Positions 40,507 to 43,450 of a stretch of DNA of 64,000 nt are shown piece by piece. Source of the stretch: Prescottella sp. R16 (GTDB lineage: Bacteria > Actinomycetota > Actinomycetes > Mycobacteriales > Mycobacteriaceae); NCBI RefSeq assembly GCF_030656875.1, contig NZ_CP130943.1:3100001-3164000 (forward strand), read 5' to 3'. How positions within the stretch are numbered: the stretch's first letter is position 1; every line of letters begins with the position of its first letter. The position numbers and the translations under genes were made by a program. The notes below the pieces were generated by a model. The model was not told where the DNA came from, made no database searches, and saw only the letters and a list, made by a program, of their open reading frames with translations.

Positions 40507-41353
40507 GGCCCGTCAAGGATAGCCCGTCCGCCGCAGCGGTCACGTCCGCGGAGGCGCCGGCCACCCGTCGCACGTACCGCTCGCACCGAGCGGCGAGTTC
40601 GCGACGATCCCCACCCGGCCGCTGCACCGGACCCACCACCACCTCGGCCCGCACGCCACGGCTCCGCAGGATCCGCCGCATCGACGCGCCGATCTCCTCG
40701 TCGCCCACGAAACTCGGGCCCGTCGTCCGCTCCCCGGACGCGTCGACATAGCCGATCGACACCGGCACCACCGGCCGGCCCGAATCGATCGCGGCCTGGA
40801 ACAGCGCCGGACGGAACCGCCCGTACACCCGGCCGCACCACGTGGTGCCCTCCGGGAACGCGATCACCGTCTCCCCCGCCGCCAGCCGATCCCGCACCAC
40901 CGCGACCGTCGCGGGCAGCCGGCGCAGCCGGTCCCGTTCGATCGGGACGACACCCGCCCACCGGGCCACGACACCGAGCAGCGGCCACGACACCAGATCC
41001 GCGCGGGCGACGAACCGGCCCGGCGTCACCGCTGCGAGTACCAGGACATCCAGCCACGACGTGTGCCCCGCGACGACGAACGCACCCCCACCCATCTCAC
41101 CGACGTCCACCCGGCGTCCTCGATCGAGGCGAATCCCGATGCTGTGCAATGCCACCCGCGCCAGGCTGCGGTGCACCGCCGTCCGCAGACCGGCCGGCAG
41201 CAGCCGTACCAGCGGCAGCAGCAGCGTCGACGACGCCACCAGGACCAGGGCGCACCAGCGGGCCGCCGCCACCACCGTCGGCACCCGTTCCGGACGCCGC
41301 GGCAGACACCCCGCACCGCACGGGCTCACCGGCTGCCACGCGTGCCCGCTCAC
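40370..41353 (-). CDS. 1-acyl-sn-glycerol-3-phosphate acyltransferase-like (PlsC/OlsA family)
   Basis: A 327-aa membrane-associated acyltransferase. The H-x4-D motif is HTSWLD, and the PlsC motifs FPEGTTW and [10 protein letters not shown] follow, with a short N-terminal hydrophobic segment. Together with the GNAT encoded upstream it resembles the OlsA-OlsB pair, in which OlsA adds the second acyl chain to lyso-ornithine lipid; this is inferred. The GTG start overlaps the upstream stop by 4 bases. The tail after about residue 280 runs through 137 bases of the desulfurase gene in another frame. Confidence 0.8.
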
Positions 41354-42165
41354 GCCGCGGCCTCGACCACCGCCGACGCCCGACGCAACCGCTCGAGATA
41401 GCGGGTGTCCGCGCCGTGCAGGCTCTGGACCGCCACGAAGTCGGCGACACCGAAGTCCGGATCGTGGGCGGGCTGCCCGTGGATCCGCGCACCCAACCGC
41501 AGGTATCCGCGCAACAGCGGCGGCACCACGGCGCGCTCGGCGGCGGCGATGTCGTCGAGCGGGCGCCCGTCGACCCGCACGGGCCGCCGCGGCCGCACCC
41601 ACCGGCCCGGGTCGGCGGCGTGCCGGGCCAGCAGCAGATCCCGGACCGCGCGGACGTTCGCCCCCGGCACCGCGTCGGGCCGGTCCTGCATCGGAACCGA
41701 CACACAGCCCATGACACTGTCGTGGCCGGTGAGCTGCAGATAGTGCAGGATTCCGGCCCACATGAGCGCCAGCACCGACCCGTTCCGGTGCGCGGCGTCG
41801 ACGCACGCCCGCCCCATCTCCACGACCCGCAGACCGGCCGGGTCGAGATTCGCGAGATCGAACTCGGTGGCGGTGTAGTAGCCGCCCGCGGCGCGAGCAC
41901 CGTCCGGCGGCAGCATCCGGTAGCAGCCGACGAACTCACCCGTCCGGTTGTCGCGGACGAGCAGATGGTCACAGAACTCGTCGAACCGGTCGGCGTCGAG
42001 CAGCGCCTCGTCGAGGGGAAGAACGAAGCCGGGTTCGGTGGAGAACACCCGGTAGCGCAGCCGCTGCGCGGCCTGCCGATGGTCACGGTCGGCGGAGACG
42101 ATCAGGGAGTAGCGCGGGGTCGTGTGCGCAGAACAGACGGTTTCGACGAACGGCGAAGTTGTCAT
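41350..42165 (-). CDS. GNAT-type N-acyltransferase (OlsB-like)
   Basis: A 271-aa GNAT of the OlsB/hemolysin-acyltransferase-like group (L-ornithine N-acyltransferase). It has RYRVFSTEPGF, the conserved VGCYRMLPPDGA and VEMGRACVDAAHRN, and a C-terminal segment KARIHG-like (YLRLGARIHGQPAHDPDFGV). OlsB-type enzymes transfer a 3-hydroxyacyl group from ACP to ornithine. With the PlsC-like gene downstream, an ornithine-lipid role is plausible but not shown. Confidence 0.78.
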   Translation of the reverse strand: MTTSPFVETVCSAHTTPRYSLIVSADRDHRQAAQRLRYRVFSTEPGFVLPLDEALLDADRFDEFCDHLLVRDNRTGEFVGCYRMLPPDGARAAGGYYTATEFDLANLDPAGLRVVEMGRACVDAAHRNGSVLALMWAGILHYLQLTGHDSVMGCVSVPMQDRPDAVPGANVRAVRDLLLARHAADPGRWVRPRRPVRVDGRPLDDIAAAERAVVPPLLRGYLRLGARIHGQPAHDPDFGVADFVAVQSLHGADTRYLERLRRASAVVEAAA

Positions 42166-42242
42166 GCTGCAGGTCTATCGCCCGTCGACAGCGCCGGGGC
42201 GTCTGCTCCGTGACGCGTCGATGCAGGTTCGGTGAACGCGCT

Positions 42243-42302
42243 GCGCGCACGTTGACGTCCTGCGCGCACGATTGCGCGCGCAGGACGTCGAGTCGCGCGC
42301 AG
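42243..42302. repeat. 60-bp palindromic direct repeat, copy 1
   Basis: A 60-bp unit found again at 43333-43392 with one mismatch (C in place of A at the loop). Each copy holds a 14-bp inverted repeat GACGTCCTGCGCGC / GCGCGCAGGACGTC with an 8-base loop, and flanking GCGCGC runs. The two copies bracket the AbiEi-like/DUF559 gene in the same orientation. Confidence 0.95.
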
Positions 42303-42306
42303 GAAC

Positions 42307-42334
42307 CTGTGGACAGCGTCGAAGTTGTCCACAG
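42307..42334. promoter_or_regulatory. Inverted repeat upstream of the AbiEi-like gene
   Basis: CTGTGGACA and TGTCCACAG form a perfect 9-bp dyad with a 10-base spacer, 43 bases before the gene. The right arm includes TTGTCCACA, which is also the high-GC DnaA-box sequence. It could be an autoregulatory operator, as AbiEi proteins bind inverted repeats, or DnaA-type sites. Confidence 0.5.
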
Positions 42335-42376
42335 ATTCCGAAACGGGTCTCGCGTAGACCCCGGCCGGCTTCCACG

Positions 42377-43345
42377 ATGGACGACATGACCGAGACACCA
42401 CGGCTGCTCCGTCGCAGCGACGCACTGGCCCACGGCTACACCGACGCCGAGATCCGGACCCTGTGCCGCACCGGCGGGCTGCACCGATTACGGCCCGGCG
42501 CCTACCTCGCCCACGACGCACATGCCGACCTCGAACCGTCGCAGCAACACCTCGAACTCGTCCGCGCGACGCTACCGAAGGTGAGTGCGGACGCCGTCGT
42601 CAGTCACCAGTCTGCGGCTGCTCTACACGGGTTACCCTTGTGGCGGATCCCACTCGATCGCGTCCACGTCACGCGGGTCCGGACGTCCGGCGGCCGTCGC
42701 ACCCGACTGCTGCACTCGCACTGTGCGCCGCTGGCCGATCGGGATGTCGTGGAAACAGGCGGCCTCCGCATCACCTCACTCGCTCGCACCGTGGCCGACT
42801 TGTGCCGGACAACTCCTTTCGAGTCCGCGGTCGTCACCGGTGATGCCGCGCTGCACACCGGCTCGATCCGAACCGACGATCCGGCCGACGCCCTGTCCTA
42901 CGCGGAGCGGAGACCCGGGTACCCCGCCGCACTGCGGGCGCTCGCGTTCCTGGACGGACGCAGTGAGAGCGTCGGCGAGTCCCGCAGCCGCGTTGTACTC
43001 GCCGGGCTCGACGTGCCGGCCCCGGAATTGCAACGATCGCTGCTCGACCCGGACGGCCGATTCCTGGGTCGGGTCGACTTCCTGTTCTCGGACGCCGGTG
43101 TCGTCGGGGAGTTCGACGGGAAGGTGAAGTACGGCAAGTACCTTCGTGACGGCCAGGACCCCGGGGATGCAGTGTTCGCGGAGAAGCAACGCGAGGACCG
43201 GATCCGAGACGCCGGCTGGGAGGTGGTGCGCTGGGTGTGGAGGGACCTCGCACGTCCGGAGGTGATCGGTGCCCGTATTCACCGGGCTATGCGCCGCGCC
43301 GCGGTCCGGCCTCGGCCACTCGGTGAGGCGCCGCGCGCACGTTGA
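42377..43345 (+). CDS. AbiEi-like winged-helix plus DUF559 nuclease-like protein
   Basis: A 322-aa protein. The N-terminus (about residues 10-50: RRSDALAHGYTDAEIRTLCR, LHRLRPGAYLA) is like the wing-helix of AbiEi antitoxin-domain proteins. The middle has HQSAAALHGLP, and the C-terminus (about residues 225-315) resembles DUF559/Vsr-type PD-(D/E)xK nucleases: GRVDFLF, GEFDGKVKYGK, AEKQREDRIRDAGWEVVRWVW. No AbiEii toxin gene is next to it. The start is ATG 42377 (ATG 42386 also possible). The flanking 60-bp palindromic repeats suggest a mobile or selfish unit. Confidence 0.75.
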   Translation: MDDMTETPRLLRRSDALAHGYTDAEIRTLCRTGGLHRLRPGAYLAHDAHADLEPSQQHLELVRATLPKVSADAVVSHQSAAALHGLPLWRIPLDRVHVTRVRTSGGRRTRLLHSHCAPLADRDVVETGGLRITSLARTVADLCRTTPFESAVVTGDAALHTGSIRTDDPADALSYAERRPGYPAALRALAFLDGRSESVGESRSRVVLAGLDVPAPELQRSLLDPDGRFLGRVDFLFSDAGVVGEFDGKVKYGKYLRDGQDPGDAVFAEKQREDRIRDAGWEVVRWVWRDLARPEVIGARIHRAMRRAAVRPRPLGEAPRAR

Positions 43346-43392
43346 CGTCCTGCGCGCACGATTGAGCGCGCAGGACGTCGAGTCGCGCGCAG
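43333..43392. repeat. 60-bp palindromic direct repeat, copy 2
   Basis: The second copy of the 42243-42302 unit, 59 of 60 positions identical, in the same orientation. It begins inside the last codons of the AbiEi-like gene and runs into the spacer before the etfA terminator. Confidence 0.95.
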
Positions 43393-43414: not shown

Positions 43415-43450
43415 CGACGCCCCGTCACCGGAAGCGGTGACGGGGCGTCG
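43415..43450. terminator. Bidirectional terminator after etfA
   Basis: A perfect 15-bp stem CGACGCCCCGTCACC (43415-43429) / complement (43436-43450) with a 6-base loop, between etfA (-) and the AbiEi-like gene (+). Confidence 0.8.

Follow-up and report, generated by a model that had tools for sequence, protein, structure and literature searches.

The 64,000-nt stretch of Prescottella sp. R16 DNA analysed here (the window) contains a gene for an AbiEi-type protein with a predicted nuclease domain, bracketed by two copies of a palindromic element, and most of the relatives of this gene that we tested are likewise bracketed by palindromes of their own. The reading we favour, to which we give an even chance, is that palindrome, gene and palindrome make up one unit: the nuclease would probably break its own palindromes, and recombination at these places would copy, homogenise and delete the unit. 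The components of the unit, in window coordinates, are the following.

42238-42302, + strand: upstream palindromic element (element proper 42242-42302), with four GCGCGC half-sites and an inner 14-bp stem at 42254-42267/42276-42289
42308-42316, - strand: DnaA-box-like site 1, TGTGGACAG, short core only (42308-42314)
42325-42333, + strand: DnaA-box-like site 2, TTGTCCACA, strict form
42377-43345, + strand: gene for the AbiEi-type protein with a predicted Vsr/homing-endonuclease-like nuclease domain, 322 aa
42392-42955, + strand: predicted AbiEi-like N-terminal half, residues 6-193
42956-43306, + strand: predicted nuclease domain, residues 194-310, with E201, D234, E245, D247 and K249
43328-43392, + strand: downstream palindromic element (element proper 43332-43392), in direct orientation, inner stem 43344-43357/43366-43379

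The two palindromic elements form a direct repeat of 65 nt (97%, 2 differences), within which a 60-nt portion (42243-42302/43333-43392) has 1 difference. An earlier sequence-only reading had described this portion as two 60-bp direct repeats with one mismatch and 14-bp-stem hairpins, enclosing a single gene; this description was correct, and the repeat could be extended to the 65 nt. Each copy is built in two tiers, the 14-bp stem lying inside a larger imperfect palindrome with arms of 27-30 nt. The stop codon of the gene (43343-43345) is inside the downstream palindrome.

A scan of GTDB genomes yielded 236 relatives of the protein, of which the best 80 were kept (35-87% identity). They belong to Rhodococcus, Nocardia, Williamsia, Gordonia, Nocardioides, Enemella, Micropruina and other genera; five of the 80 (L060-L063 and L094) are from Prescottella or close kin and overlap with the set of 14 Prescottella genomes described below, and some are near-duplicates (e.g. 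L101/L102). The nearest named relative is that of P. subtropica (87% protein identity). Flanks were scored as matching at a local alignment score of at least 26, and L103 and L114 were dropped because their loci were too short. Matching sequences on both sides of the gene were found in 61 of 78 relatives; of 585 windows of equal geometry, shifted along the same loci, 12 had them. Bracketed relatives elsewhere ruled out that the cassette is tied only to the place it occupies in the window, between an acyltransferase gene and etfA. The shared flank segment (median 77 nt) bears the palindrome, and of the 61 better matches 36 were direct and 25 inverted.

The two sides of one gene matched with a median score of 53, and the palindromes of distant genes were unrelated to each other. 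Palindrome similarity tracked protein identity (Mantel r 0.76, 0/2000 permutations). The fraction of palindrome pairs scoring at least 20 was 0-1% at protein identities below 50%, 12% at 50-60%, 33% at 60-70% and 68% at 70-80%; above 80% all 21 pairs did so. In the nine Prescottella genomes with a flank pair around the gene or its remnant at the acyltransferase-etfA site, the two flanks were on average 89.1% alike within a genome, versus 79.5% between genomes (0/20000 permutations). This concerted change was strong in G000 (Prescottella sp. R16, 4.57 Mb), G012, G002 and G007; G008 showed it moderately, and G001, G006, G009 and G010 weakly or not at all.

The palindromes share a common design. 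In the 47 elements with arms of at least 24 nt (14 of the 61 palindromes have shorter arms and are omitted from this test) the outer and inner half-sites of an arm shared an exact word of 6.1 nt on average, versus 3.9 nt after permutation. The shared word was 6 nt or longer in 25 elements, in 24 of which the offset between the half-sites was 19-20 bp; the other 22 elements had no such word. Alignment of 44 Prescottella elements showed strongest conservation in four GCGCGC blocks and in the centre. Seven of the 51 elements listed had been dropped from this alignment by eye (L166, L169, L190, L191, the second of L171, L196 and L197), L194 yielded none, and the element model made from the 44 rows has no row from G005, G011 or G013. 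To judge from sequence, the recurring design resembles four protein-binding half-sites, to which the protein would bind.

The 322-aa protein was matched by the AbiEi models of PADLOC (down to E 3.7e-18); Pfam AbiEi_4 reached 18.3 bits, under its cut-off of 25 bits, and scans with NCBIfam gave no match. The N-terminal half is predicted to have the AbiEi winged-helix fold, matching 6y8q and 1zel, and the C-terminal half a catalytic-domain fold like that of Vsr and homing endonucleases. The gene had been read as an AbiEi-like/DUF559 nuclease: PADLOC bears out the AbiEi part and the predicted Vsr-like fold supports the nuclease part, but Pfam detected no DUF559 domain in the window protein. Among 64 family members Pfam found AbiEi_4 (35), AbiEi_1 (4), CMD (2), DUF559 (1) and MTES_1575 (1), and no Y1 transposase model; no transposase model of any kind was matched in the Pfam scans of these and of the window proteins. 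All 61 genes with matching flanks, and 9 of the 17 without them, had the complete E-D-E-D-K signature (Fisher test, 1e-6). Seventeen of the 80 relatives are absent from alignment A1, 7 because of stops or frame problems and 10 by choice.

Residue 249 is altered in seven Nocardia relatives (L076, L078, L081, L083, L129, L137 and L139), three of which have H at position 201. The same seven are without matching flanks and without the DnaA-box-like cores described below; they are possibly a repurposed, non-cutting branch.

A sequence search of solved structures returned one weak, unrelated match. In a library of viral structures there were 448 matches at E <= 10 and none at E <= 0.001, by which unlisted families are not excluded; the names of the best-ranked matches were largely DUF559, Vsr, restriction-type or none. 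No match was obtained in PHROGs with three proteins, and none indicating carriage of the gene by plasmids and phages at E <= 1e-20 and 1e-8. As far as we know, such genes are usually labelled as AbiEi antitoxin or DUF559 and have been assigned no role.

Another recurrent feature precedes the gene. The motif TT[A/G]TCCACA, which we take to be a DnaA box with putative binding of DnaA, occurred in its strict form within 110 nt before the start of the matched stretch (which is not the annotated start) in 37 of 79 genes (L103 omitted); of 728 random windows 1 had it, and of 391 windows before neighbouring genes 0. The shorter core was present before 59 of the 79 genes, versus 14/728 and 7/391. Two cores were found before 29 genes, spaced by 17-20 nt in 26 of them; in the window the two cores start 19 nt apart. 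The core precedes 50 of the 61 bracketed genes (11 lack it) and 9 of the 18 others. None of the 29 plus 13 solo copies of the palindrome had a core within 80 nt.

In the window the 322-aa gene has a GNAT acyltransferase gene as its left and etfA (with etfB) as its right neighbour; both lie on the other strand, the acyltransferase gene starting divergently and etfA being convergent. The upstream palindrome lies between the divergent starts, and the downstream one between the convergent genes. The acyltransferase (41350-42165, - strand) resembles L-ornithine N-alpha-acyltransferases (OlsB-like), at scores under the NCBIfam cut-offs. As the sequence-only reading had stated, there is no transposase gene and no cognate AbiEii gene between or beside the acyltransferase, cassette and etfA genes. 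One further feature lies outside the cassette.

43415-43450, no strand assigned: separate 16-bp hairpin, a likely terminator, located between the gene and etfA, whose 3' ends face each other

Among the 14 Prescottella genomes, the acyltransferase-etfA site has a full-length gene between two palindromes in seven (G000, G001, G002, G007, G009, G010 and G012) and a broken gene between two palindromes in two (G006 and G008). G004 has exactly one palindrome and no gene, G003 and G005 have short palindrome-like remnants, and in G011 and G013 the acyltransferase gene was not found adjoining etfA. Palindromes thus bracket the gene or its remnant in 9 of the 9 Prescottella genomes that keep either. The gene adjoins the same acyltransferase gene in Antrihabitans (with etfA 4 kb off), Skermania and Tomitella; the Antrihabitans and Skermania copies have quite different palindromes, and the flanks of the Tomitella copy (L068) are under the threshold. 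Since the gene stands at this acyltransferase gene in Prescottella and in these other genera, it was not inserted in the Prescottella lineage but lost by relatives. A recent insertion between the acyltransferase gene and etfA was therefore ruled out, and the idea that the gene interrupts an otherwise syntenic order had the direction wrong: here the gene is the older state.

At another place, the same in both, G006 and G007 carry a second cassette, whose palindrome differs from that of the first but is related to it. G001, G002, G003, G004 and G005 have one palindrome of 60-67 nt and no gene at this second site, and none was seen there in the other seven Prescottella genomes (both read by eye). 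The empty site with one palindrome copy, proposed earlier as something to look for, was thus found in G004 at the acyltransferase-etfA site and in five genomes at the second site. The two carriers are not sister species: G006 groups with G001/G003 (support 100) and G007 with G004/G005 (95), in a species tree from two markers with weak deep nodes (support of the G001/G006 node, 51). Their second-site genes are sisters (~90% identity, support 100). The pattern is most simply explained if the cassette was ancestral and was lost no fewer than three or four times, with one palindrome left behind on each occasion in the manner of solo long terminal repeats (LTRs), although two gains at a resident palindrome may also account for it. 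At single-palindrome sites the trees favour loss over gain as the probable direction.

Other copies of the palindrome, which the sequence-only reading had suggested searching for, were found dispersed in the genomes. Sites of the 61-nt element were counted in G000 only: there are 8, 2 of them at the gene, corresponding to 16 two-strand matches. For other genomes the counts are two-strand matches, and the sites are about half as many. Genomes with the full-length gene had 16 (G000), 23 (G001), 28 (G002), 32 (G007), 16 (G009), 9 (G010) and 22 (G012) matches. Those with a broken or lost gene had 12 (G003), 10 (G004), 9 (G005), 14 (G006) and 10 (G008), and the numbers were higher with the full-length gene (9-32 versus 9-14, one-sided p 0.02). 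G011 and G013 had 0 and 0, with a model that contains no rows from either. Thirty dispersed copies were located with a simple open-reading-frame caller: 25 are intergenic and 16 lie between convergent genes, some being mutually orthologous.

None of the element sites of G000 falls at its four other AbiEi-like genes. One paralogue in this genome, at G000:C1:3956907-3957815 (L032), is 51% identical and has different palindromes alongside; L032 and its relatives L049 and L050 in other Prescottella genomes are accompanied by TGTCGCAGG- and TCACACAC-type repeats. Up to eight paralogues were found in one Williamsia genome. Of 20 Williamsia paralogue loci inspected, 16 had a flank pair scoring at least 26, and three of the other four start less than 200 nt from a contig end. 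A search of 7 genomes found the Williamsia L126-type element in 4, and these are the same 4 of 5 Williamsia genomes in which an L126 orthologue (86-100%) is present. The L115-type element was present in five of 7 genomes, three of which carry a gene 80-100% like L115; in G016 (16 matches) only a 75% relative of L115 was found, and in G018 (1 match) only a 74% relative plus an 80% fragment.

No clean insertion of a solo copy, with filled and empty orthologous sites, was found at the L174 and L170 sites. The L174 site has a half-palindrome in G000 and unalignable intergenic DNA in the other readable genomes, and 7 of its 14 loci lack one of the two anchors; the L170 site proved to be shared with G012. 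Precise copying as the origin of two near-identical G012 copies 2.6 kb apart was ruled out, as they are part of a duplicated segment of 134 nt. The intergenic flanks at gene-free sites are too diverged to show any target-site duplication.

Two observations point to the dyad of the palindrome. Outside the window, at G000:C1:3385111-3412085 (L290-L292), a 9-kb unit occurs three times in right-left-right order; the units are 99.84-99.88% alike, differing by 0-1 mismatches and 10-13 gap positions. Palindrome copies coincide with one end and one axis of this inverted triplication, the other axis being without such an element. The axis palindrome consists, to within one base, of the other copy's right half and the mirror image of that half, joined together. 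Furthermore, where G012 has an intact palindrome, G000 keeps only the right half, truncated at the dyad (L174/L236 versus L237). The triplication and the half-palindrome deletion are consistent with breakage at the centre of the palindrome.

If palindrome, gene and palindrome are a working unit, the AbiEi-type half would bind the four half-sites of the cognate palindrome and the Vsr-type half would cut or nick it near the dyad; both roles are suggested by predicted fold, conserved residues and co-variation. With other palindromes as templates for repair of the break, the flanks would be homogenised and the cassette copied to or from palindromes, or deleted down to one copy. Control by DnaA might time expression to replication, with cutting when a sister copy is available for repair. 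The solo palindromes would be either scars of lost cassettes, or also mobile on their own in the manner of repetitive extragenic palindromes (REPs). Several points weigh against this reading. No gene remnants were seen at solo palindrome sites (23 of 23 and 13 of 13 loci), the trend of palindrome-protein co-variation would also be expected from common descent alone, the traces of breaks at the dyad require no nuclease, and the 9-kb triplication may be a recent event or an assembly fault.

The lack of gene remnants favours a serious rival, which we nevertheless consider unlikely: a resident, domesticated enzyme mobilises the palindrome alone, as with REPs, so that the gene rarely moves and its flanking copies are the parents. 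The dispersal of full-length copies, mostly intergenic and often between convergent genes, fits with this, as do the coincidence of L126-type copies with the L126 orthologue, the larger number of matches alongside a full-length gene (and their absence from G011 and G013) and the vertical retention of the gene at the etfA site. However, copy numbers are low and the Prescottella copies look old, G016 has its 16 L115-type matches with only a 75% relative of L115, and single palindromes at the exact position of a cassette suggest recombination between flanks. Williamsia paralogues with their own flank pair are common, which argues that the gene does multiply. Of the earlier suggestions, that of a REP-like system in which a predicted nuclease and palindromes are partners is supported. 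The two outcomes named as unfavourable did not occur: relatives with the gene at the acyltransferase-etfA site also have repeats, and the palindrome, although scattered, is strongly linked to the gene family.

That the protein is an AbiEi-type repressor, the palindromes being operators of its own promoter and of a small regulon and the nuclease fold vestigial, has a slim chance in our view. Binding to inverted repeats in the own promoter is described for AbiEi and Rv2827c (PMC3985639, PMC7319586), and the upstream copy is suitably placed between divergent starts. The downstream copy, lying between convergent genes as do 16 of the 30 dispersed ones, is an unlikely promoter operator, the catalytic residues are intact in all bracketed genes, and solo palindromes remain at the emptied second site. 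A very slim chance is left to a defence system or replication-linked checkpoint, in which a DnaA-controlled nuclease is restrained by chromosomal palindromes and attacks DNA lacking them; the DnaA-box-like motif, the AbiEi similarity in PADLOC and the predicted nuclease fold would agree with this, but there is no partner gene, and several Prescottella genomes have lost the gene or have it in broken form. GC-rich hairpins are common and solo copies often lie at gene ends, as would be the case for terminator-like repeats standing beside the gene by chance. This we regard as practically negligible, being contradicted by the flank test, the Mantel correlation, the 19-20 bp step and the separate terminator-like hairpin already present at 43415-43450.

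Among known systems the cassette would in its working be most like a REPtron (TnpA-REP/RAYT) or a homing cassette. In REPtrons, as described in PMC8266576, palindromes border a nuclease gene, cognate copies are dispersed, and the gene is mostly kept in a housekeeping-like manner; a nuclease gene bordered by palindromes with dispersed cognate copies is also what we found. TnpA-REP is, however, an HUH enzyme acting on single strands, whereas here an AbiEi-type half is joined to a Vsr-like nuclease, both predicted. The elements also differ in being ~60-80 nt long with four half-sites, in their low copy number and DnaA-box-like motifs, and in that one genome has several genes, each with its own palindrome. 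The consensus of the 44 Prescottella elements (that genus only) has no GTAG/CTAC tag, although a CGTC stretch occurs inside some copies. As no HUH enzyme was found and the consensus lacks GTAG, the system is not a REPtron.

The AbiE type IV toxin-antitoxin is a bicistronic abiEi-abiEii operon, and Rv2827c binds four repeats, according to PMC3985639 and PMC7319586, respectively. The predicted N-terminal fold and the inverted repeats before the gene are shared with the AbiEi antitoxin and Rv2827c, but the extra predicted nuclease domain, the second palindrome behind the gene and the dispersed copies are not. A toxin-antitoxin cassette is not supported, because no AbiEii gene adjoins. The predicted catalytic-domain fold is that of Vsr and of the Vsr-like (EDxHD) homing endonuclease I-Bth0305I; unlike these, the family has an AbiEi-like DNA-binding half and the conserved residues E..D..ExDGK, no intron or intein was seen, and two whole palindromes flank the gene instead of a single split site. 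Counterparts of the gene-free alleles of homing systems would be the solo-palindrome alleles, seen at the second site in G001-G005 and at the etfA site in G004.

In the open-access literature, as judged from titles and the beginnings of abstracts, we found nothing joining this AbiEi-nuclease family to flanking palindromes or DnaA boxes, and we know of no kind of element that pairs an AbiEi-Vsr-type enzyme with bracketing cognate palindromes. We propose, tentatively and with somewhat less than even confidence, an undescribed, actinobacteria-wide class of mobile or selfish cassettes, in which a DnaA-timed AbiEi-Vsr nuclease would cut the dyad of its own four-site palindrome, spread and homogenise by break-induced recombination, re-evolve palindrome and recognition together at each locus, and leave solo palindromes as scars or offspring. 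It would be an independently evolved, nuclease-based counterpart of REPtrons.

The family gains a likely target, since most tested genes carry their own palindrome; genomes should therefore offer dozens, and probably hundreds, of naturally occurring pairs of protein and site, all of one geometry. If the cutting is true, the cassettes would represent a new type of palindrome-linked mobile element and explain dispersed palindromes in actinobacteria. They would also offer a possible link between replication control by DnaA and the activity of an element, and a collection of nucleases whose sequence specificities have re-evolved.
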